A DNA stretch of 64,000 bases from Clostridiales bacterium (lineage in GTDB: Bacteria > Bacillota > Clostridia > Lachnospirales > JAQSXR01), in NCBI GenBank assembly GCA_029256575.1, contig JAQSXR010000001.1, positions 59,567-123,566 on the forward strand. The letters run 5' to 3'. Under the pieces are notes generated by a model. The model had not been told where the DNA came from and made no database searches. It saw only the letters and a program-made list of their open reading frames with translations. Each line of letters starts with the position of its first letter. The stretch's first letter is position 1. Of the stretch, positions 35,813-49,463 are shown one piece after another. Made by a program: the position numbers and the translations under genes.

Positions 35813-36502
35813 ATGAATTTACTCAAAAAAAATCAGGTAGTTATTACCGCGTTAGTTATTATGGTCACAATAGCAGGATACCTTAGTTATACACAGAAGA
35901 ATTTGCCAAAAGATGCGCAAACATCTGGGAATCCAAACGCTAATACACCAGTAGTACAACAAAGTAATGATCTAAGTGCTGAAGTTGATGATCTAATCGA
36001 CGATGAGACACCAGACCTCACAAATGATGGCGCTGTAGTTGATAATGAAAATACAGCAGATCCAGTAGTAGCAGATGGAGAGAACACAGATCCAAGTAAC
36101 GCTGGAGAAGCCGTATTTACAAACACACAAATTACAGCTAGTGAATACTTTATTCAAGCCAAATTTAATAGAGAACAGGCTAGAGCAAAAGGGAAAGAAA
36201 CTTATTTAGAATTAATTAACAACCCTAATTTATCAGAAGCTCAGAAAAATGAAGCCATTCTTCAAATGTTAAACATCGCTGATAATGTAGAAAAAGAAGC
36301 AACTGCAGAAGATCTTCTACAAGCAAAAGGCTTTGTAAATGCAATGGTTAGAATTAGTGAAAAATCAGTAGACGTTGTAGTTACGACAGAACAATTAAAA
36401 GATGAGGATAGAGCACAAATAGAAGATATCGTAAAACGTGCAACGAGTTGCGATGCAGGTATGATAGTGATTACTCCTGTAAGATTTGAAAAAGAACAAT
36501 AG
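35813..36502 (+). CDS. spoIIIAH: Stage III sporulation protein AH
   Basis: N-terminal TM and C-terminal ring-building-like domain (YFIQAKFNREQARAKGKETYLELINN). Confidence 0.93.
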   Translation: MNLLKKNQVVITALVIMVTIAGYLSYTQKNLPKDAQTSGNPNANTPVVQQSNDLSAEVDDLIDDETPDLTNDGAVVDNENTADPVVADGENTDPSNAGEAVFTNTQITASEYFIQAKFNREQARAKGKETYLELINNPNLSEAQKNEAILQMLNIADNVEKEATAEDLLQAKGFVNAMVRISEKSVDVVVTTEQLKDEDRAQIEDIVKRATSCDAGMIVITPVRFEKEQ

Positions 36503-36540
36503 TTAGTGAATTCTTTAAAATGCTCTAATTGTCAAGATTA

Positions 36541-36585
36541 ATGGCAGAATGATAAAATACATTTTATCGTTTCTGCCATTTTATT
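36541..36585 (+). terminator. Terminator of the spoIIIA operon
   Basis: ATGGCAGAAtgATAAAAtacaTTTTATcgTTTCTGCCATtttatttt. Confidence 0.85.
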
Positions 36586-36707
36586 TTGTAAAAAATTATG
36601 TAATAAGGTATAATAGGAATATAGGTGTTTAAAAATTCATTGCAAAGAGAAGTATTTATTTGGTATAATGAGTTAATATATGATTATCCAAAATAGGAGG
36701 AATTATT

Positions 36708-37082
36708 GTGGACGATAAAAAAACTTTTAAAATTACTGGAAATGATCAAATTGGTGAAGTTCATATTGCTAACGAAGTTGTGGCTATAATAGCAGGATTA
36801 GCAGCTACTGAAGTTGAAGGTGTAGCAGCTATGGCAGGAGATATAACAAGTGAATTGATTAGTAAACTTGGAATGAAATCTTTATCAAAAGGTGTTAAAG
36901 TAGAAGTTGGACAAGATGATGTTAGTATTGAACTTGCATTAGTCCTTGAATATGGTTATAATGTACCAAGCGTATCAAGAACAGTACAAGAAAGAGTAAT
37001 GACAGCAGTAGAAACAATGACAGGTCTAAGCGTTACTGATGTAAATATTAAGATTGCAGATGTAAACTTAGACAAGAAATAA
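36708..37082 (+). CDS. Asp23/Gls24 family envelope stress protein
   Basis: GEVHIANEVVAIIAGLAATEVEGVAAMAGD. Confidence 0.93.
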   Translation: MDDKKTFKITGNDQIGEVHIANEVVAIIAGLAATEVEGVAAMAGDITSELISKLGMKSLSKGVKVEVGQDDVSIELALVLEYGYNVPSVSRTVQERVMTAVETMTGLSVTDVNIKIADVNLDKK

Positions 37083-37094
37083 ATAGAAGTTTTA

Positions 37095-37120
37095 AGGCGA
37101 GGCTTACCTCGCCTATTTTA
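37095..37120 (+). terminator. Stem-loop between asp23-family gene and nusB
   Basis: AGGCGAGGcttaCCTCGCCTATTTT. Confidence 0.7.
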
Positions 37121-37139
37121 GCGAAAGGCGGCATAATCC

Positions 37140-37541
37140 GTGACCAGAAGAGAAACAAGAAAACACATATTTAAACTTTTGTTTAGAGTTGAATTTAATG
37201 AAATAATTGAGGTATATGAACAAGCAGATAGCTATATTGAAAGCATACCGAGTGAACCAACGGAAGCAGAAGGAATATATATTAAGAAAAAATTAGAAGC
37301 AATCGTAGATAAACTAGAAGAAATAGATAATATTATCACCAAAACAGTAGAGAACTGGAATGTTGGGCGTATGGGTAAAGTTGATTTAACAATCATACGA
37401 CTTGCTGTATATGAAATTAATTTTGATGATGAAATACCAACATCAGTAGCAATAAATGAAGCAGTAGAGTTAGCTAAGAAATACGGTGGAGACGAATCTT
37501 CTACATTTATAAATGGAGTATTAGCTAAAATGGTAAAATAG
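37140..37541 (+). CDS. nusB: Transcription antitermination protein NusB
   Basis: TRRETRKHIFKLLFRVEF, DLTIIRLAVYEI, PTSVAINEAVELAKKYGGDESSTFINGVL. Confidence 0.95.
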   Translation: MTRRETRKHIFKLLFRVEFNEIIEVYEQADSYIESIPSEPTEAEGIYIKKKLEAIVDKLEEIDNIITKTVENWNVGRMGKVDLTIIRLAVYEINFDDEIPTSVAINEAVELAKKYGGDESSTFINGVLAKMVK

Positions 37542-37550
37542 GAGGATAAT

Positions 37551-38765
37551 ATGCCTAATATTTATTCTGTAGGACAAGTGAATCAATATATAAAAGATTT
37601 GTTCACTAGGGACTACCTTCTTAGTGATATTCAGATTAGAGGAGAAGTGTCTAATTGTAAGTATCATACTTCAGGGCATATATATTTTACCCTAAAAGAT
37701 CCAACTAGCTCGATAGCTTGTGTAATGTTTAGCTCTGATAGGGAACATCTTAATTTCAAACTTACGGAAGGGCAATCAATAGTCGTAAGAGGTGGAATTA
37801 GTGTATATCCAAGAGATGGTAAATACCAATTATATGCAAAGAGTATAGTTCAAGATGGTGTTGGAGCCCTATATCAACAATTTGAAGAATTAAAAGCGAA
37901 ACTAAATGCCAAGGGATATTTTGATCAAGACAGAAAGAAGAATATTCCGACATTTGCTAAAAAGATTGGAATTGTAACTGCACAAACTGGTGCTGCAATT
38001 CAAGATATAATAAATATAAGTAAAAGAAGAAATCCATTTATTCAATTGATACTTTATCCAGCGCAAGTACAAGGTATGGGTGCTGCTAAGACTATAGTAA
38101 GAGGTATTAATGTATTAGATAAAATGGATGTTGATGTGATAATTATTGGACGTGGTGGTGGATCAATCGAAGATCTGTGGTGTTTTAATGAAGAAATCGT
38201 AGCAGATGCCATATTTAATGCAAAGACTCCAATTATTTCTGCTGTCGGGCACGAAGTAGATTTTACAATATCAGATTTTGTTTCTGATTTACGAGCTCCT
38301 ACACCATCTGCAGCAGCTGAGATTGCAGTATTTGACTATAATTCGTTAAACAGTTCACTACAACAACTTAAATATAAATTGGATAATACAATGAGGCATA
38401 GGATAGTATATTATAATAGTTTAATTAAATCACTTTCACTTAGATTAAACTATCAAAAGCCTGATAATAAGATAAATCAACAGAAACAGCGTGTTGCTGA
38501 TTTAGCAGATCGATTAGTTTTTTTACTTGAACAAAAAGTAAAAGATAAGCGAACAAAATTAGAACTTCTTCACAGACGATTAGAATCCTATAATCCAGCA
38601 AATAAACTTGAAAAAGGCTTTGCATATGTTACAAACGAAGCAAATTTACCAGTTATTGATATCTTAAAAGTTAATAATGGAGAAATGCTAAAGTTAATTC
38701 TTGCAAACGGAGAATTAGAGGTTGAAGTTAAGAATATAAAAATCAAAAAGGAAGAGGTGAAGTAA
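37551..38765 (+). CDS. xseA: Exodeoxyribonuclease VII large subunit
   Basis: SVGQVNQYIKDLF, GRGGGSIEDLWCFNEE, SAVGHEVDFTISDFVSDLRAPTPSAAAE. Confidence 0.96.
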   Translation: MPNIYSVGQVNQYIKDLFTRDYLLSDIQIRGEVSNCKYHTSGHIYFTLKDPTSSIACVMFSSDREHLNFKLTEGQSIVVRGGISVYPRDGKYQLYAKSIVQDGVGALYQQFEELKAKLNAKGYFDQDRKKNIPTFAKKIGIVTAQTGAAIQDIINISKRRNPFIQLILYPAQVQGMGAAKTIVRGINVLDKMDVDVIIIGRGGGSIEDLWCFNEEIVADAIFNAKTPIISAVGHEVDFTISDFVSDLRAPTPSAAAEIAVFDYNSLNSSLQQLKYKLDNTMRHRIVYYNSLIKSLSLRLNYQKPDNKINQQKQRVADLADRLVFLLEQKVKDKRTKLELLHRRLESYNPANKLEKGFAYVTNEANLPVIDILKVNNGEMLKLILANGELEVEVKNIKIKKEEVK

Positions 38766-38969
38766 ATGGAACAAAAGAAAACCTTAGATGAAACGATTAA
38801 TGAATTAGAAACCTTACTTGGTAAAATGGAAGGTCAAATATTAAGCCTTGAAGATACATTTACTTTATATAACGATGGGCTAAAGCTCGTTAAATACTGC
38901 AACGAATCAATTGATACAATTGAGAAAAACATCGCTATATTGAATACGGATTTAAGTTCTGAGGAATAG
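38766..38969 (+). CDS. xseB: Exodeoxyribonuclease VII small subunit
   Basis: TLDETINELETLLGKMEGQILSLEDTFTLYNDGLKLVKYC. Confidence 0.95.
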   Translation: MEQKKTLDETINELETLLGKMEGQILSLEDTFTLYNDGLKLVKYCNESIDTIEKNIAILNTDLSSEE

Positions 38970-38979
38970 AGGTGGAGCA

Positions 38980-39867
38980 TTGTTCGATAAAATTTTTATA
39001 GAGAAAAAAGAAGATATTGAAAGAGTAATCACTCGTTATTTACCCAAAGAAGAAGGATATCCGAAAACTGTAATAGAAGCAATGAATTATAGTGTGTTAG
39101 TAGGTGGTAAGAGAATAAGGCCAATGCTTTTACGTGAGACGTATGCTTTGTTCGGTGGTGAGTCTTTAATTATCGAACCTTATTTAGCAGCTATAGAATT
39201 TATACATTCATATTCATTAGTACATGATGATTTACCGGCATTAGACAATGATGAATTAAGAAGAGGAAATCTAACTACGCACATAAAGTTTGGACATGCA
39301 ATGGGAATACTAGCAGGGGATGCCCTACTTAACTATTCATATGAAATATTGTCAAGTGCATACGAACTTTCTCCAATGTATATTGATAGATGTGCAAAGG
39401 CAAACAAATATATTTCTAAAAAAGCAGGAATATATGGAATGATCGGTGGACAGGTAGTTGATATTGAAGCAGTAGGTAAGACTTTAGATATCGAATCAAT
39501 CGAATATATTCATATGAATAAAACAAGCGCTTTAATACAAGCAGCTATGTGTGCTGGTGCGATTCTTGCAGGGGCAACAGTTGAAGAATTAAACGTTGTT
39601 GAAGAAGCTGCCAATAAAATAGGTCTTGCATTTCAAATTCAAGATGATATATTAGATATTGTAGGTGATGAAGATAAATTAGGCAAAGCTATAAATAGTG
39701 ATGCCAAAAATCAAAAAACAACCTATGTTACAATTAAAGGCATTGAAGAATCTAGAAAAGATGTTGAGACATTAACACAGTCAGCACTCGACAATCTTAA
39801 GGCATTAGGATATACAAATGATTTTTTATTTGCACTTATAGAGAAGTTAATTAATAGAATAAATTAA
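38980..39867 (+). CDS. ispA: Polyprenyl (farnesyl) diphosphate synthase
   Basis: VGGKRIRPMLL, LVHDDLPALDNDELRRG (FARM), FQIQDDILDIVGD (SARM). Confidence 0.95.
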   Translation: MFDKIFIEKKEDIERVITRYLPKEEGYPKTVIEAMNYSVLVGGKRIRPMLLRETYALFGGESLIIEPYLAAIEFIHSYSLVHDDLPALDNDELRRGNLTTHIKFGHAMGILAGDALLNYSYEILSSAYELSPMYIDRCAKANKYISKKAGIYGMIGGQVVDIEAVGKTLDIESIEYIHMNKTSALIQAAMCAGAILAGATVEELNVVEEAANKIGLAFQIQDDILDIVGDEDKLGKAINSDAKNQKTTYVTIKGIEESRKDVETLTQSALDNLKALGYTNDFLFALIEKLINRIN

Positions 39868-39869
39868 TA

Positions 39870-40500
39870 TTTATTAAAGACGCAGTATTCTAGTCTTCGT
39901 AATTAATCCCAAAGACGGGCCTAAAAATCCGTTTGAGGGCATATCGATGAAGTTCCTTGTGGGGGCTGGCGACGCCAAGCGCGGGCTTGTGCTGGGAGTT
40001 AAGGTATTAGGGCGATCCACAAAGGCATGTGGGCGTTGACCCTGGTATCGCGGAGACCTATGTATGTGGCATTTTATAGTGAAATGACTACGGCATGGGA
40101 GGAACCTGTCGCGCGGTGAAAGCTGTGGACAGAGTAGCCTGCCTTGCGTGGGGTTTAGGGGATAGCGTGCTAAGTGGTATTTTTCATTGGCCAATGGGAA
40201 ATACTACGAACACTTGAAACTTTACTTCGCAAAAGAGGCTAGGGGTTATATTACGATGTTAAGGAAAACTTCTAGACTGTTCTAACGAGATAAATGTGGG
40301 ATTACAGTGTGGTTATAAGGCGATCTAGCGCAATTGATGGTGACACAGTTGGTTCTGATTTAAAGGGAAACCACTTTTTTGGCGACGAAAGAGTATTGGA
40401 ATGGGAAAACCTGCTGGACCAGATGCCGCAAAATTTACTACACATATCGTCTTTAATAAATATTTTATTATAAGAATTACTATTGATTTTAACAATAAAA
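39870..40500 (+). ncRNA. ole: OLE (Ornate Large Extremophilic) RNA candidate
   Basis: ~600 nt GC-rich non-coding block between ispA and a small membrane-protein gene upstream of dxs; multiple internal stems (e.g. CCACAaaggcaTGTGG, GTATTTTTCATTGG/CCAATGGGAAATAC); genomic position and size match OLE RNA. Both boundaries approximate; the 3' end could be as early as ~40440. Confidence 0.86.
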
Positions 40501-40526
40501 TAAATAAGGTGAGTGAATTAATATAT

Positions 40527-41120
40527 ATGCCGAAGAAAAACAAAGTCAAGTTTAGAGCAAATAATAAAGGTAATAAAACAAGGATTAAGATATTAATTAT
40601 CGTAGCATCGATTACTATGCTACAAGCAATTTTATTAGGTTATGCATCTCTAAGCTTTATGGGAGGTCTAAGCCTATTTTGGGCTATGCTGATAGTACTA
40701 GTGATTATTTTCATTGGTATTTTTTTTGATATATTGGGGATTGCAGTTACAGCAGCTTCAGAGACACCTTTTAATTCAATGGCAGCTTCAAAAGTACCAG
40801 GTGCGAAGGAAAGTATTAAAATACTTCGTAATGCAGGTACGGTAGCAAATTTTTGTAATGACGTTATTGGTGATATTTGTGGTATTGTTTCAGGGTCTGC
40901 AGCAGGGGCAATTGTTATTAAGTTAAATACATATATTTCAATCCAATCAACGCTTTTAAGTGTTCTAGTAACTGCATTAATTGCAACAATAACAGTTACT
41001 GGCAAAGCAGTAGGGAAAGACATAGCTATAACAAATGCGAATGCAATTGTATTTAAAATGGGTGCTACTGTAAGGGTACTAACTTTAAAGCGAATATTTT
41101 CAAAGAACGAAAAATTATAA
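40527..41120 (+). CDS. oapA: OLE-associated protein A-like membrane protein
   Basis: Multi-TM ~198 aa protein immediately after the RNA and before dxs; ATG at 40527. The first 42 residues of the ORF-track translation (from 40401) overlap the RNA and are likely spurious. Confidence 0.82.
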   Translation: MPKKNKVKFRANNKGNKTRIKILIIVASITMLQAILLGYASLSFMGGLSLFWAMLIVLVIIFIGIFFDILGIAVTAASETPFNSMAASKVPGAKESIKILRNAGTVANFCNDVIGDICGIVSGSAAGAIVIKLNTYISIQSTLLSVLVTALIATITVTGKAVGKDIAITNANAIVFKMGATVRVLTLKRIFSKNEKL

Positions 41121-41141
41121 AATAAGGTTAGGAGGCATACA

Positions 41142-43016
41142 ATGGCATCAATAATAGACAGTTTAAATAATAATAATAAAAAAATAGAGAATCTAGATAA
41201 ATCGGAATTAAAATGTTTGGCAAAAGAAATACGTGAATTTTTAGTTACTTCGATTAGTAAAACAGGTGGTCATTTGAGCTCTAACTTAGGTGTTGTAGAA
41301 TTAACAATTGCAATGCATAGTGTATTTAATATTACTAAAGATAAATTTGTATGGGATGTTGGGCATCAATCCTATGTGCACAAAATCTTAACTGGAAGAA
41401 AAGCAGGATTTGAACGTTTAAGAAAATTAGGTGGATTAAGCGGTTTTCCAAAAACTCTTGAAAGTAGAGCAGACTCTTTTAATACAGGGCACAGTTCCAC
41501 CTCGATATCTGCAGGTCTAGGAATGGTAAAAGCAAGAGAATTAAATAAAGATAACTATAGTGTTATATCTGTAATTGGAGATGGAGCGTTAACAGGTGGA
41601 ATGGCTTTTGAGGCATTGAATAATGCAGCAAGATTAAAATCGAATTTTATTATTGTTTTAAATGATAACAATATGTCTATAGATAAAAATGTTGGAGCGC
41701 TTTCTAAGTATTTGAATTCGATTAGAACAGAGCCAAAGTATAAGAATTTCAAACAAGATATTGAAAAATTTATTAATCAAATACCAGCTGTTGGACCTCG
41801 AATGGTCCGAACAGTTAAGAAATCTAAGAATAGTATTAAACAACTATTTGTAAGCGGGATGTTATTTGAAGAATTAGGGATTAAGTATATTGGGCCGATT
41901 GATGGACACAACATAGATGAATTAATAACTAATTTTGGCTATGCAAAAAGGGTAAATGGACCTGTTTTGCTTCATGTAAAGACAACTAAGGGAAAAGGAT
42001 ATAAATTTGCAGAGAAAAACCCTGGGAAATTTCATGGAATTGAGCCTTTTGAGATTATAACTGGAAATGTATTAACGAAGAAAAAAAAGTTAACCTTTAC
42101 AGAAACTTTTTCAAACTATCTTGTAAAACTTGGTAAAGAAAATGATAAAATTGTTGCAATCTCAGCTGCAATGCCAAATGGAACAGGTATTAATAAGTTT
42201 GCCAAGGAATTTCCAGACCGTGCATTTGATGTAGGAATAGCAGAACAACATGCGGTTACATTTGCCGCGGGAATGGCTATTAGTGGATATATTCCAGTAG
42301 TTGCTATTTACTCTTCATTTTTACAAAGAGCATATGATCAGATAATACACGATGTATGTATTCAAAATCTACCTGTTATTTTTGCAATTGATAGAGCTGG
42401 TATTGTTGGAGAAGATGGTGATACACATCAAGGTATATTTGACCTTTCCTACCTATCTCATATTCCAAATCTAACAATTATGTGTCCAAGTCATAGTAAA
42501 GAACTTGAAGATATGCTGGATCTTGCGGTATCTATGAATTCACCTGTTGCGATAAGATATCCAAAGGGAAAGATAGAAGAGAATCGTGATTTAGAGTCAC
42601 ATACAAAGTTAGAAGTAGGGAAAGCAGAAGTAATAAGTAATGGGAAAGATATTGCAATTCTTGCAGTAGGCAGTATGGTAAATACCGGGCGAAAAGTAAA
42701 TGAAAATTTTCGGGCATTAGGATTTAATGTGACGGTAGTAAATATGCGTTATGTCAAACCATTTGATACGCAATTGATAGATAATATTTGTAGTAATCAT
42801 AAATATATATTCACGTTAGAAGAAAATGTTTGTGTAGGTGGATTTGGTAGAGAAGTACTAGCCTATATAAGTTCGAAAAATAATTTTTACAATGTTGTGA
42901 CTAATATATCTTTAGAGGATAAATTCATTGAACACGGTACGCGAGACGAATTATGTACGATATGTGGATTAGATGAAAATACAATAACAGAGAAAATACT
43001 TACAGTAATTAAGTAA
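41142..43016 (+). CDS. dxs: 1-deoxy-D-xylulose-5-phosphate synthase
   Basis: GGHLSSNLGVVELTIAMH, GDGALTGGMAFEALNNA, DRAGIVGEDGDTHQGIFDLSYL. Confidence 0.97.
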   Translation: MASIIDSLNNNNKKIENLDKSELKCLAKEIREFLVTSISKTGGHLSSNLGVVELTIAMHSVFNITKDKFVWDVGHQSYVHKILTGRKAGFERLRKLGGLSGFPKTLESRADSFNTGHSSTSISAGLGMVKARELNKDNYSVISVIGDGALTGGMAFEALNNAARLKSNFIIVLNDNNMSIDKNVGALSKYLNSIRTEPKYKNFKQDIEKFINQIPAVGPRMVRTVKKSKNSIKQLFVSGMLFEELGIKYIGPIDGHNIDELITNFGYAKRVNGPVLLHVKTTKGKGYKFAEKNPGKFHGIEPFEIITGNVLTKKKKLTFTETFSNYLVKLGKENDKIVAISAAMPNGTGINKFAKEFPDRAFDVGIAEQHAVTFAAGMAISGYIPVVAIYSSFLQRAYDQIIHDVCIQNLPVIFAIDRAGIVGEDGDTHQGIFDLSYLSHIPNLTIMCPSHSKELEDMLDLAVSMNSPVAIRYPKGKIEENRDLESHTKLEVGKAEVISNGKDIAILAVGSMVNTGRKVNENFRALGFNVTVVNMRYVKPFDTQLIDNICSNHKYIFTLEENVCVGGFGREVLAYISSKNNFYNVVTNISLEDKFIEHGTRDELCTICGLDENTITEKILTVIK

Positions 43017-43027
43017 TAGGTGGAATT

Positions 43028-43831
43028 ATGAAAGAAAGATTAGATGTACTACTTGTTGAACGAAATTTAGCTGAATCAAGGGAAAAAGCAAAAACGATTA
43101 TAATGTCTGGAAATGTATTCGTTGATGGCCAAAGAGAAGATAAAGCTGGAACAAATATTAATACAGAAGCTATTATTACGATTAAAGAGAATCCTTTAAA
43201 ATATGTGAGCAGAGGTGGGCTAAAGCTTGAAAAAGCTATGGCCAATTTTGATATATTAATTGAAGGTAAAATATGTATGGATGTTGGAGCATCTACGGGT
43301 GGTTTTACAGATTGCATGTTACAAAATGGTGCCACAAAAGTTTATTCAGTTGATGTTGGTTATGGACAACTTGCTTGGAAGTTAAGACAAGACGAAAGAG
43401 TTGTATGTATGGAGAAGACGAATGTTAGATATATGACACCGGATAAGCTTCAAGAATTAGTATCCTTTGCATCTATTGATGTATCTTTTATTTCATTATT
43501 ATTAGTACTTGGCCCAGTTAGAGACATTTTAGAAGATGATGGACAGATTGTAGCACTGATAAAACCACAATTCGAAGCAGGGCGTGAAAAAGTTGGAAAA
43601 AAAGGTGTGGTACGTGAAAAAGCAGTTCATATTGAAGTAATTGATAAAGTGATTAATTATGCACTCAAAAACGGTTTTTGTGTAAAAAATCTTGAATTTT
43701 CACCAATTAAAGGGCCTGAAGGAAATATTGAGTACCTTGTTCACTTAAATAAATCGAGTGAAATTCAAAATTATGAAGATTTGTGCATAAATATAGCTGA
43801 AGTAGTTGCAAAAGCACATGAAAACCTATAA
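43028..43831 (+). CDS. tlyA: TlyA family rRNA (cytidine-2'-O)-methyltransferase / hemolysin-like
   Basis: S4 domain RLDVLLVERNLAESREKAK; FtsJ-like MDVGASTGGFTDCMLQNGA. Confidence 0.94.
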   Translation: MKERLDVLLVERNLAESREKAKTIIMSGNVFVDGQREDKAGTNINTEAIITIKENPLKYVSRGGLKLEKAMANFDILIEGKICMDVGASTGGFTDCMLQNGATKVYSVDVGYGQLAWKLRQDERVVCMEKTNVRYMTPDKLQELVSFASIDVSFISLLLVLGPVRDILEDDGQIVALIKPQFEAGREKVGKKGVVREKAVHIEVIDKVINYALKNGFCVKNLEFSPIKGPEGNIEYLVHLNKSSEIQNYEDLCINIAEVVAKAHENL

Positions 43832-43879
43832 TATATATTATATATAAAAGATTCTAGCATCGTATAGAGGTGATCGTAT

Positions 43880-44752
43880 ATGAATAATTTTTGCATAATT
43901 ACTAACATCCCCAAAGATAAAGATTTGAGGATGACAAAATTAATAAAGAATTGGCTAGAATTACATAATAAAAAAGTATATATTCCAGATGAACTAGCTA
44001 AACTTCTCGGAGAAACAAATTCTTTTTCAAAGGTTGAAGATATTGCAGGAAAGGTAGATTGTGCTATTATTCTCGGTGGAGATGGAAGCATACTCGTATC
44101 AGCGCGTGAGTTTGCATTACAAGACGTTCCAATAGTTGGGGTTAATTTAGGGACATTAGGCTTTTTGGCTGAGATTGAAAAAGAAGATGTAATTAGTGTT
44201 CTAGAGAATATAATTAACAAAAAATTTATAATTGAAAATAGAATGATGATTGCAGTAGAAGTTATTAGAGATGGTGAAGTAATAAATAGGGATATTGCGC
44301 TTAACGATGCTGTTATTACCAGAGACGGAGCGTCAAGGATTGTACATTTAAAGTCATTTATAAATTCAGAGTTATTGGATGCATATGAAGCGGATGGAGT
44401 TATTGTTTGTACACCAACGGGATCTACTGCATATAATTTATCTGCTGGTGGTCCTATCTTACATCATGATTCTGAAATGATGGCGATTACCCCAATTTGT
44501 CCACATACATTAACTTCAAGAAGTATTGTTGTTTCAGCAAAAGATACTATAACAATATTAGTGGATAACATTCGCAAAAAAACATGTGAATCAAACTTAT
44601 TATCATTAGACGGACAAGTAAATTATGAAGTAATACAAGGGGATATTATCAAGATTACGAAATCTGATTTAATCACTAAACTACTAATTCTAAATAGAAA
44701 AAATTTTTATGAAATACTTAGAACTAAAATAGGAATGACAAAGGAGGTTTAA
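43880..44752 (+). CDS. nadK: NAD kinase
   Basis: GGDGSILVSAREF, GVNLGTLGFLAEI, TPTGSTAYNLSAGGPI. Confidence 0.95.
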   Translation: MNNFCIITNIPKDKDLRMTKLIKNWLELHNKKVYIPDELAKLLGETNSFSKVEDIAGKVDCAIILGGDGSILVSAREFALQDVPIVGVNLGTLGFLAEIEKEDVISVLENIINKKFIIENRMMIAVEVIRDGEVINRDIALNDAVITRDGASRIVHLKSFINSELLDAYEADGVIVCTPTGSTAYNLSAGGPILHHDSEMMAITPICPHTLTSRSIVVSAKDTITILVDNIRKKTCESNLLSLDGQVNYEVIQGDIIKITKSDLITKLLILNRKNFYEILRTKIGMTKEV

Positions 44753-44754
44753 TA

Positions 44755-45216
44755 ATGAAAATAGATAGACAATCTAAGATTATACAACTAGTAAATGAAA
44801 TGGAAATAGAGACTCAAGAGGAATTAGCTGAAAAGCTTACGGCTTCTGGGTTTACAGTTACGCAAGCTACAGTTTCAAGAGATATTAGAGAACTAAGATT
44901 AACCAAAGTAACGAACGAAATTGGTAAACAAAAATATTCAATTCAACCTTCAACGGAAAATCAGTTAAATGATAAATTAATCAGAGTACTTAAGGATGGT
45001 TTTGTGTCTGCCGATAGAGCACAAAATATTCTTGTTATAAGAACGGTTTCCGGTATGGCAATGGCGGTTGCAGCTTCTTTAGATGCGATACGTTTTAGCG
45101 AAATAGTAGGTTCGATTGCAGGGGATGACACGATTATGTGTGCGGTTAGAACGAATGAAGATACAATTACAGTTATGGAAAAGATAAATAAAATTATTAG
45201 AAGTAATGAAAAATAG
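44755..45216 (+). CDS. argR: Arginine repressor
   Basis: SGFTVTQATVSRDIRELRLTKV; C-terminal SIAGDDTIMCAVRT. Confidence 0.95.
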   Translation: MKIDRQSKIIQLVNEMEIETQEELAEKLTASGFTVTQATVSRDIRELRLTKVTNEIGKQKYSIQPSTENQLNDKLIRVLKDGFVSADRAQNILVIRTVSGMAMAVAASLDAIRFSEIVGSIAGDDTIMCAVRTNEDTITVMEKINKIIRSNEK

Positions 45217-45293
45217 TATATTAACAGAACGGGTATAAGTAGAATGGATACAAAACGACTAATATAGATCGGATATGAATAAGGGGGAGTAGG

Positions 45294-46982
45294 ATGCTAC
45301 TAAATTTACATGTTAAGAATTTAGCATTGATTGATGAGATTGAGGTAACTTTCGATAACAATCTAAATATCTTAACGGGAGAAACAGGAACTGGAAAATC
45401 AATTATTATTGACTCTATTAGTATTGCTCTTGGCGGAAAAATGAACAAAGATATTGTTCGTAGTGGAGCAGAGTATGGTTTGGTAGAATTATTATTTTCT
45501 ATTTCGAATCAAATTACAATAGCTAGAATAAAAGAAATGGGTTATCCAGTTGATGATGGAGAAGTTTTGATTTCTAGAAAAATAATGAATGGAAAGAGCG
45601 TGTGTAGGCTAAATGGGGAGTCTATTACAGCAACAAATTTAAAAATTTTATCCGAGTATTTAATTGATCTTCATGGTCAACATGAGCATCAATCGTTACT
45701 CAACAAATCAAAACATCTTGAGATCCTAGATGAATTTTGTGGTGAGGCTTTGAAAGATCCAATCAAAGAATTAAGAAGTACATATGATACGTTAAATGAA
45801 TATAAGAAAAAATTGTTAGATTTGGATATAGACGAAGAAAAGAGAAATAGAGAGATATCTTTTATTGAATATGAAATTTCTGAGATTGAAGATGCAAAGC
45901 TAAAAAAAGATGAAGATATTGAGATTACATCTCGATATAAATTAATGTCTAATTCTAAAACTATTACAAGTGCAATTAATAATGCATACGAGTTAACTTC
46001 GGATTCTGGGAATTCAAATCTATTAGGAGCGTCAAATTTAATTGGAAAAGCCATTAAATTTATAAAAAATGTAGAAGCATTTGATTCGAAAATTAGTGAG
46101 TTAGTTGAAGAAATCGAAAATGTAGATACTTTATTGAATGATTTTAATAGAGAAGTGTTAGACTATGTAAATGATATGACTTTTGATGAAGAAATTTTTA
46201 ATGAAGTAGAAGAACGATTTGATATAATAAATAATCTTAAAAATAAATACGGTAATAGTATAGAAGATATTATTAACTATTGTATCTTGCAAAAGGATAG
46301 ATTAGAAATATTATTAAATAGCGAAGAATATTTAGAAGAAATAAAGTCTACGATCAATACTTTGGAAAACAAGGTTAGAAAAATTTGTGAGTCGATTACA
46401 AAAATTAGATTATCAAAATCAAAGATAATAGCGGAGCAAATTAAAAATGCTCTTGTAGAATTAAATTTTTTAGATGTTCAATTTGAAATATGTATGAAAC
46501 CGACAGACAAGCCAACACGAAATGGTAATGATGATGTAGAATTTCTAATATCAACAAATCCAGGTGAAGAAGTTAAACCACTTCAAAGAGTAGCTTCTGG
46601 TGGTGAACTATCAAGAATAATGCTTGCGATAAAATCAGTATTAGCTGAGAATGATAATATAGAAACACTTATTTTTGATGAAATAGATGTTGGTATTAGT
46701 GGTAGAACTGCTCAAAAAGTTTCTGAAAGGCTTGCAGTAATAGCAAAAAATCATCAAGTTATTTGTATTACGCATTTACCACAGATTGCAGCAATGGCAG
46801 ACGAACATTATTTAATTGAAAAAATAACAAATAAGGCAAAAACTTATACAAATATAAAGCGGTTAGATGATAATTCTTCCATAATGGAGCTTGCAAGACT
46901 TCTTGGAGGTGTTGAAATAACTGATACTGCAATACAAAATGCAAATGAAATGAAAATTATGGCTCAAAAGAAAAAGGTGTAG
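45294..46982 (+). CDS. recN: DNA repair protein RecN
   Basis: VKNLALIDEIEVTFDNNLNILTGETGTGKSIIIDSI; VASGGELSRIMLAIKSVLAE; FDEIDVGISGRTAQ. Confidence 0.96.
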   Translation: MLLNLHVKNLALIDEIEVTFDNNLNILTGETGTGKSIIIDSISIALGGKMNKDIVRSGAEYGLVELLFSISNQITIARIKEMGYPVDDGEVLISRKIMNGKSVCRLNGESITATNLKILSEYLIDLHGQHEHQSLLNKSKHLEILDEFCGEALKDPIKELRSTYDTLNEYKKKLLDLDIDEEKRNREISFIEYEISEIEDAKLKKDEDIEITSRYKLMSNSKTITSAINNAYELTSDSGNSNLLGASNLIGKAIKFIKNVEAFDSKISELVEEIENVDTLLNDFNREVLDYVNDMTFDEEIFNEVEERFDIINNLKNKYGNSIEDIINYCILQKDRLEILLNSEEYLEEIKSTINTLENKVRKICESITKIRLSKSKIIAEQIKNALVELNFLDVQFEICMKPTDKPTRNGNDDVEFLISTNPGEEVKPLQRVASGGELSRIMLAIKSVLAENDNIETLIFDEIDVGISGRTAQKVSERLAVIAKNHQVICITHLPQIAAMADEHYLIEKITNKAKTYTNIKRLDDNSSIMELARLLGGVEITDTAIQNANEMKIMAQKKKV

Positions 46983-47057
46983 CTTTACTCTTTATGGTTT
47001 ATTTGCTAGTTTTATTTTTTCACATATACAGATAATAAGAACAAGAGATATACGTTA

Positions 47058-48374
47058 GTGTATATCTTTTTGCTTACTATGGAAGGATGTGGAAGAGTGA
47101 ACAGCAGAAAAAGAAAGTATAGACAAGTATTGTCTATCATAACAGCATTCACATTATTAGCATTAGGTGTATTTGTAGGTCGAGAATTTATAGAGTACAA
47201 CTTACCTAATAATATCAATATAATTGCTGGTGAAGAAAACAATTTGGGTTTCAAACTTCCAATTAGTATTGATATTACACAATGTGAGCAAGGAACACTT
47301 CGAATAAGTAATGAAGATGAAGATGAATCTAGTTATATTGATCTTCGTAAAGAATTTACTGTACCAAGTAGCCAAACAGGAAATTATAAATTAGAATTTA
47401 AAATGTTTGGTATTTTTAGACTAAAAAGTGTTGAATTTTCAGTTGTAGAAAACAAAGAAGTATATGCACTAGGAATCCCGTCAGGAATGATAATCAATAC
47501 GGATGGTGTGTTAACACTGGGAACAGGTATTGTTAAAGGCGATGACGGCATTGATTATGAGCCTTGTAAGAACAGAATTGAAGTTGGAGATTATATCATT
47601 AAAGTAAATAACAAAACAATACAATCAAAGGAAGAGTTAATAAAGATTGTGGAGAGCGAAGGAAATAAGGATGTAGTAATTTCGATTAGACGTGATGGTG
47701 AAATTAAAAATGTAATTATTACACCAGCTTTATCGAAAGTTTTAGGAAAATATAGAATAGGTTTATGGGTTAGAGATGATACACAAGGAATAGGTACAAT
47801 TACGTATGCTACAAAGGATGGTAAATTTGGTGCTTTAGGGCATGGAATTACGGATGTAGATACAAAAGATTTAATGGATATTTCAGATGGTGAAATATAT
47901 AAGACTAAAATATTAGAAATTATAAAAGGAAAAAGTGGAAAGCCAGGTGAAATATCTGGAGTAATTGTTCCGTCAAAAGATAATAAAATTGGTGAAATTA
48001 ATGAAAATACATCTTTTGGTGTTTTTGGTACTTTATCAAAGAGTTATTTAAATAGTCTTGATAAAGTTGCTTATCCGATTGCATACAGGCAAGATATAAA
48101 AATAGGTGATGCAATTGTAAGAAGTACACTTGAAGGAGAAACACATGATTATCAAATTAAAATAGTAAAGATTTATAGAAATTCTATCGATAACAAAAGT
48201 ATGATAATTGAAATAGTAGATGAGCGATTATTGGGTATAACCAACGGAATCGTACAAGGTATGAGTGGAAGTCCAATAATACAAGATGGAAAGCTTATAG
48301 GAGCAATTACCCATGTGTTTATTCAAGATTCAAAAAGAGGATACGCAACTTTCATCGAAAATATGATAAAATAA
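47058..48374 (+). CDS. spoIVB: Stage IV sporulation protein B (S55 peptidase)
   Basis: PDZ region, FGALGHGITDVDT, GITNGIVQGMSGSPIIQDGKLIGAITHVFIQD. Confidence 0.95.
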   Translation: MYIFLLTMEGCGRVNSRKRKYRQVLSIITAFTLLALGVFVGREFIEYNLPNNINIIAGEENNLGFKLPISIDITQCEQGTLRISNEDEDESSYIDLRKEFTVPSSQTGNYKLEFKMFGIFRLKSVEFSVVENKEVYALGIPSGMIINTDGVLTLGTGIVKGDDGIDYEPCKNRIEVGDYIIKVNNKTIQSKEELIKIVESEGNKDVVISIRRDGEIKNVIITPALSKVLGKYRIGLWVRDDTQGIGTITYATKDGKFGALGHGITDVDTKDLMDISDGEIYKTKILEIIKGKSGKPGEISGVIVPSKDNKIGEINENTSFGVFGTLSKSYLNSLDKVAYPIAYRQDIKIGDAIVRSTLEGETHDYQIKIVKIYRNSIDNKSMIIEIVDERLLGITNGIVQGMSGSPIIQDGKLIGAITHVFIQDSKRGYATFIENMIK

Positions 48375-48376
48375 CG

Positions 48377-48402
48377 ACTCGGCGTAAAGCTGAGTTTTTT
48401 TG
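48377..48402 (+). terminator. Intrinsic terminator of spoIVB
   Basis: ACTCGGCgtaaaGCTGAGTTTTTTT. Confidence 0.85.
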
Positions 48403-48470
48403 ACATAGGACTATATACCTATTGACGTTTAAACTAAGAATGGTGTAAGTTAATAGAGTAATAAAGTTTC

Positions 48471-48583
48471 GACGTAATTCGACAAAATATATTTTTATAT
48501 AATAATGCAAAACCTTTAATAAAAAGACTTTAGAAAAAAATTAAATGTAATAAAAAATCCTAATTTTACTAGTTGTCGAGAAA
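48471..48583. promoter_or_regulatory. Putative 0A boxes upstream of spo0A
   Basis: attcgacaaaa (minus strand TTTTGTCGAAT) at 48477-48487 and TTGTCGAGAAA at 48573-48583. Confidence 0.55.
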
Positions 48584-48662
48584 TGCGATAGGATAACCTT
48601 GAATAACAAATCCAATAAACTTATAATAAGTGAGTAGGAAAAATTTGAGTGGAGGGAACAAA

Positions 48663-49463
48663 ATGGAAAACATTAAAGTTTTAATTGCAGACGACAATGA
48701 TAAAATGCGAGGTTTATTATTGAATATTCTTAAAGGGGAGCGAGATATTACTGTCGTTGGCTGTGCAGAGGATGGGGAGGAAGCTGTAGAGTTAATTAGA
48801 AAAACAGAACCTGATGTAATTTTATTAGATGTTATTATGCCAAAACTAGACGGTTTAGGTGTATTAGAAGCTATATCCCAGGATCCAACTATTAGAAAAG
48901 CACCAACAGCTATTATGATAACAGCTGTAGGTCAGGAGAAAATAACAGAAAAAGCTTTTCAATTAGGGGCACAATATTATATTATGAAACCATTTGACAA
49001 TGAAAGCATAATAAGAAGAATAAAGCAACTTAAAGGTAAATTTGAATTTATTAAGCAAGATCTTCAAGTTCAATCATTAAGTGCTATCGAAAAACAAAAT
49101 GAAAATTCATTAGAAGCAGAAGTAACGAATATTATACATGAAATTGGAGTTCCAGCACATATTAAGGGCTATCAATATTTGAGAGATGCTATCATAATGT
49201 CAGTTGATGACATGGAAGTATTAAATTCAATAACGAAGCTTTTATATCCTACAATTGCTAAGATGCATAAAACTACCCCTTCTAGAGTTGAAAGAGCAAT
49301 TCGACATGCTATAGAAGTTGCGTGGGGACGCGGAAATATGAATACAATTGATAAACTATTCGGATATACCATAAATAATGGCAAAGGCAAACCAACAAAT
49401 TCAGAATTTGTTGCTTTAATATCAGATAAATTAAGACTTGAACGTAAAGCGAAAGTATCATAA
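48663..49463 (+). CDS. spo0A: Sporulation master regulator Spo0A
   Basis: Receiver ([31 protein letters not shown]) and Spo0A C-terminal DNA-binding domain ([39 protein letters not shown]); ATG 48663. Confidence 0.97.

Follow-up and report, generated by a model that had tools for sequence, protein, structure and literature searches.

Gene order and extent of the OLE locus

The window, a stretch of 64,000 nt belonging to a 3.11-Mb draft genome, carries an OLE RNA gene between ispA and oapA, within a run of genes that all lie on the plus strand (Table 1). Upstream, the order is spoIIIAE/AF, a gene at the SpoIIIAG position that has no Pfam match, spoIIIAH, an Asp23-family gene, nusB, xseA, xseB, and ispA; downstream, OLE is followed by oapA, dxs, a tlyA-like gene, nadK, argR, recN, and spoIVB. 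This order is that of the published OLE neighborhood (PMC12265935), and the sporulation genes at the locus indicate that the host is likely a spore former.

Table 1. Coordinates of the genes and RNA elements of the OLE locus (window positions)
Feature	Position	Strand	Basis or remark
Asp23-family (yqhY-like) gene, nusB, xseA, xseB	36708..38969	+	Profile matches
ispA (farnesyl diphosphate synthase)	38980..39867	+	NF045485 above cut-off
OLE RNA (RF01071), full length, about 609 nt	39861..40469	+	cmscan, single copy
Terminal pairing, 5' strand, beside palindrome CUAG, P1/P2-like	39883..39893	+	Nearly invariant
P3-like helix, 5' strand	39897..39910	+	Pairs with 40242-40256, 14 bp, one bulge
P4 hairpin, A-rich loop	39914..39933	+	UAAAAAU invariant in 41/41 rows; helix 97.5% paired
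J4a/5 segment AUCGAUGAAG	39943..39952	+	Nearly invariant; published kink-turn/OapC site
P5/P5.1 hairpin, GCC kissing loop	39953..39998	+	94.5% of cells paired; both-side changes at 7 pairs
P6/P6.1	40003..40049	+	P6.1 100% paired with double changes; loop GGC complements P5.1 loop
Apical P9 stem, self-complementary loop UUGGCCAA	40177..40204	+	Stem pairs and covaries
P3-like helix, 3' strand	40242..40256	+	Duplex energy with own versus swapped partners
Terminal pairing, 3' strand CUAGACUG	40272..40279	+	Complements CAGU..CUAG of 39883-39893; nearly invariant
3' domain (P11-P15 region), GGUGAC and GGCGAC hairpins	40289..40448	+	Helices 17-22: 90-100% paired
oapA, 197-aa membrane protein	40527..41120	+	ATG at 40527, directly downstream of OLE
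dxs	41142..43016	+	TIGR00204, 818 bits
tlyA-like, nadK, argR, recN, spoIVB	43028..48374	+	Downstream of dxs

A sequence-only reading of the window had proposed an OLE RNA at 39870-40500, between ispA and oapA/dxs, and had called for a search with the Rfam OLE covariance model. That search was strongly positive: using cmscan, RF01071 matched 39861-40469 on the plus strand with 435.4 bits (E=1.6e-124), compared to an Rfam gathering score of 50 bits, and the match spanned model positions 1-616 of 616. The proposal was thus borne out, and the position, size, and partner gene agree with the published OLE locus. The location had been given correctly but the edges had not, since the final 30 bases of the proposed interval belong to the oapA leader. 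The start of the model overlaps the ispA stop codon at 39867, and the conserved OLE core begins at 39882. One OLE copy was found in the draft genome, and no other Rfam family matched within 36000-49000, even at E<=1. We are therefore all but certain that 39861-40469 is a full-length canonical OLE gene and that the adjoining oapA encodes its dedicated membrane partner.

The window OLE is a complete and typical member of a well-known RNA class. Since 2,822 Bacillota genomes in GTDB R214 are catalogued as carrying OLE (PMC11332333), the copy described here belongs to a known family, whether as a new member or as one listed before. The surprise implied by the earlier reading at finding it in an ordinary anaerobic spore former was overstated, because OLE is published as characteristic of Bacillota that live anaerobically and often form spores (PMC11332333). 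The assignment of the host to the Lachnospiraceae could not be confirmed, as this genome is the sole one compared from its GTDB family; the nearest named OapA relatives come from MAGs labelled Candidatus Epulonipiscium.

In composition, the GC content is about 0.52 across 39900-40200, compared with about 0.29-0.35 in ispA, and drops again ahead of oapA, in agreement with the GC-rich block that had been described after an AT-rich ispA. The three stems quoted with that block were all found, at or within 1 base of the positions given for them, and correspond to P5/P5.1 (39953-39998), P6.1, and P9, whose apical loop UUGGCCAA lies at 40187. The absence of a credible open reading frame was likewise upheld: the three mechanical ORFs within the RNA contain internal stops in 40/41, 37/41, and 39/41 homologous rows, and many rows show frame-breaking length changes. 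Protein coding on either strand was rejected on these interruptions. A minus-strand ORF of 106 aa does exist at 39874-40194, and the region might on that account be taken for a protein-coding gene on that strand. However, this frame is the one interrupted in 40 of the 41 rows, and both the covariation and the folding energy belong to the plus strand (z=-5.5 versus dinucleotide shuffles, none of the 20 shuffles folding equally well), while the minus strand folds no better than its shuffles (z=-1.4). The alignment refutes a minus-strand gene, to which we assign a negligible probability.

Conserved structure of the RNA

The window OLE has a conserved secondary structure with covariation. We used the Rfam structure as fitted to the window, not one derived from the alignment, and evaluated it on 41 aligned homologues, a set that may overlap with Rfam's own OLE family members. 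Thirty of these come from the order of the host and are 64-77% identical to the window OLE. Projected on the homologues, the structure gave 88.2% paired cells, versus 74.4% after shuffling and 41-46% for slid structures, and its covariation score was 0.460, versus 0.197 and 0.11-0.13, respectively. Both sides had changed at 107 of the 155 pairs, including 39 of the 47 pairs in helices 17-22 of the 3' domain.

In the window copy itself, 142 of the 155 pairs are standard. The 13 non-standard pairs, chiefly at the ends of helices and in variable parts of P7 and P9, could be read as signs of a degenerate or decaying copy, and so could the bit score of 435, as many other OLE copies in the order score higher (up to 515). 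Such decay is nevertheless extremely improbable: all 616 model positions are covered, the invariant segments GCAGUAUUCUAGUC, UAAAAAU, GUAGCCUGCCUUG, and GCAAAAGAGGCUAG are intact, the helices are preserved through compensatory changes, and the neighboring OapA is intact with its DxxxD motif.

The long-range helix P3 is absent from the Rfam model and was examined separately over 87 distinct sequences. With its own partner, the P3-like duplex had a mean energy of -17.1 kcal/mol, versus -9.0 kcal/mol (sd 0.3) with swapped partners, the lowest of 200 partner-swap shuffles reaching -9.9 kcal/mol; since partner swapping ignores relatedness, this result counts as support and does not translate into a probability. 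The comparison thus backs the P3-like helix through covariation, independently of Rfam. In a review, P3 and P3.1 (about 12 bp) were argued to span the membrane (PMC12265935), and the 14 bp of the window helix are compatible with this length, no more.

The elements to which contacts have been assigned in other OLE RNAs could be located as well. Cryo-EM placed the dimer contacts in the P4 loop, the P5.1 and P6.1 loops, and the P9 palindrome (PMC12286853, PMC12265935), and the corresponding elements appear, from their sequence, to be present and conserved in the window OLE. The published OapA contact sits near P2, where we found the P1/P2-like terminal pairing. J4a/5 is part of the OapC kink-turn (PMC9723947) and the bS21 site is located in P6 (PMC12054373); at the level of sequence, both putative sites are conserved, and both proteins are encoded in the genome. 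The hairpins of the 3' domain are present, OapB is encoded in the genome, and by analogy this domain would contain the OapB site (P12.2/P13).

OapA, other partner proteins, and distribution among relatives

The protein encoded directly downstream of OLE is a small membrane protein with the DxxxD motif and without CBS or CorC domains. The motif is invariant and reads D112-V-I-G-D116 in the window OapA; D100 and D104 of Halalkalibacterium halodurans OapA align with D112 and D116, and DxxxD sets OapA apart from CNNM proteins (PMC11332333). The AlphaFold model of OapA is all-helical (pLDDT 79), and its best fold matches in the PDB, though weak (best E=0.023, TM 0.46), were the CNNM proteins MtCorB and CorC, suggesting a CNNM-like fold. 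The CNNM sequence match was also weak (E=5e-4, below the Pfam cut-off), and a PDB sequence search with OapA returned nothing credible. A full MpfA/CNNM transporter, with CNNM, CBS, and CorC_HlyC domains, was considered for OapA and rejected, the sub-threshold CNNM match being the only one of these found.

Among 80 OapA relatives from named genomes, 78 have OLE directly upstream on the same strand, as in the window; in the remaining 2, the contig begins at or just before oapA. Of 246 genomes in the order, 43 contain OLE, and each of these 43 also has OapA; the only other OapA match, a marginal one (E=4.7e-4), falls in an MpfA-sized 416-aa frame that also carries CorC_HlyC. No ispA or dxs match lies near OLE-oapA in L112, L115, and L117, three loci of the order of which at least two belong to the same genus, indicating that OLE and oapA move together.

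Other arrangements were seen in some relatives. In L009, L089, L091, L095, L100, and L113, all from the order, a gene of about 150 aa lies between ispA and OLE; it carries the motif SGGMPS(S/A)H, was recognized by eye as PAP2/YuiD-like, and is absent from the window. Two MAGs labelled Actinomycetota, L022 (4403-5561) and L069, also have OLE-oapA, but neither ispA nor dxs lies in the stretch examined; the neighbors in L022, as judged by eye, include a NifS-like gene and a ROK-like regulator. Misbinning or transfer would explain these cases.

The genes for OapB, OapC/YbxF, and bS21 sit elsewhere in the genome, away from OLE. OapB, a 90-aa protein, was located by its position between map and infA and then confirmed by its homology to PDB 7k9b, 'OLE-associated protein B' (E=2.4e-11); the Pfam KOW model, applied to find OapB, matched only NusG and L24. 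As OapB was found in 200 of the 246 genomes of the order, it is not OLE specific. OapC is YbxF-like and its gene precedes rpsL. A complete OLE locus with all known partner genes is thereby gained from a sparsely sampled family.

Transcription and proposed function

The scan of 39300-41200, covering ispA, OLE, oapA, and dxs, revealed no terminator-like site, and oapA starts 57 nt beyond the end of the OLE model, so OLE is probably cotranscribed with oapA. A sigma-70 promoter scan gave nothing near the OLE 5' end and no more matches than in shuffles. The missing terminator-like site and the tight packing of genes on one strand would also fit a single long transcript, out of which OLE would need to be processed.

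The missing terminator-like site and the short distance to oapA would also suit an extended, structured leader 5' of oapA-dxs, a cis-regulator such as a riboswitch and not a free-standing RNA. We consider such a leader very unlikely: no Rfam regulator fits the region, while OLE fits over all 616 positions; conservation extends along the whole length, unlike that of an aptamer with an expression platform; OLE has been described as an abundant RNA in its own right, about 630 nt long and bound to OapA at the membrane (PMC9723947); and L112, L115, and L117 have OLE and oapA without a nearby dxs.

OLE is known to form a membrane RNP, and its mutants are sensitive to cold, alcohol, and Mg2+ (PMC9723947, PMC11332333). 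The identity of the window RNA, its structure, its partner genes, and their order were observed here; membrane localization, protein binding, dimerization, and stress phenotypes are carried over by homology from H. halodurans and the clostridial OLE cryo-EM. In the resulting picture, the 14-bp P3-like helix connects two domains of the folded RNA, one 5' (P4-P9) and one 3'. By homology, dimers would form via the A-loop of P4, the loops of P5.1/P6.1, and the kissing loop of P9. OapA would anchor it to the membrane, with OapB, OapC, and bS21 loading onto the RNA. Acting within an operon of isoprenoid and sporulation genes, the complex would most likely tune the CNNM-like OapA and, through it, divalent-cation and envelope/stress physiology. 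We infer that OLE regulates OapA; that OapA itself moves ions and is gated by OLE is a tentative proposal, which we hold somewhat more doubtful than probable.

Within the order, CorC_HlyC (MpfA-type) proteins are absent from 15 of the 43 genomes with OLE versus 5 of the 203 without it, counts that are uncorrected for relatedness and that repeat within one order the published OLE/MpfA anticorrelation (PMC11332333). The window genome encodes two separate MpfA-type proteins, so OLE/OapA need not be its sole such device. From these two transporters, together with an OLE cut from an ispA-oapA-dxs transcript, one could argue that the complex acts beside MpfA and is perhaps specialized to isoprenoid supply or sporulation, without replacing MpfA in Mg2+ export; we regard this as unlikely. 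Few structured bacterial RNAs with unsolved chemistry are as large as OLE, for which membrane crossing has been proposed; the window copy leaves knowledge of its function unchanged.

Compared to known systems, the window OLE shares full model length, conserved segments, and fold with RF01071 of H. halodurans and Clostridium acetobutylicum, as well as an oapA directly downstream and the ispA/dxs/nusB/xseAB/recN neighborhood, and diverges from them only in the sequence of variable stems. The ispA stop abuts OLE in the window, but in many of its relatives from the order the PAP2/YuiD-like gene separates the two. With OLE variants 1 and 2 of the TANB77 and RF39 clades (PMC11332333), the window OLE has the conserved core nucleotides in common but, unlike these shortened forms, it retains P7, P8, P9, and the 3' domain hairpins and is thus full length. 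A CNNM fold match has likewise been published for H. halodurans OapA, with which the window OapA agrees. Finally, the Mg2+ transporters MpfA, CorB, and CorC (CNNM-CBS-CorC) have a CNNM-like membrane fold in common with OapA, but they carry CBS and CorC domains, while OapA lacks both and has DxxxD.
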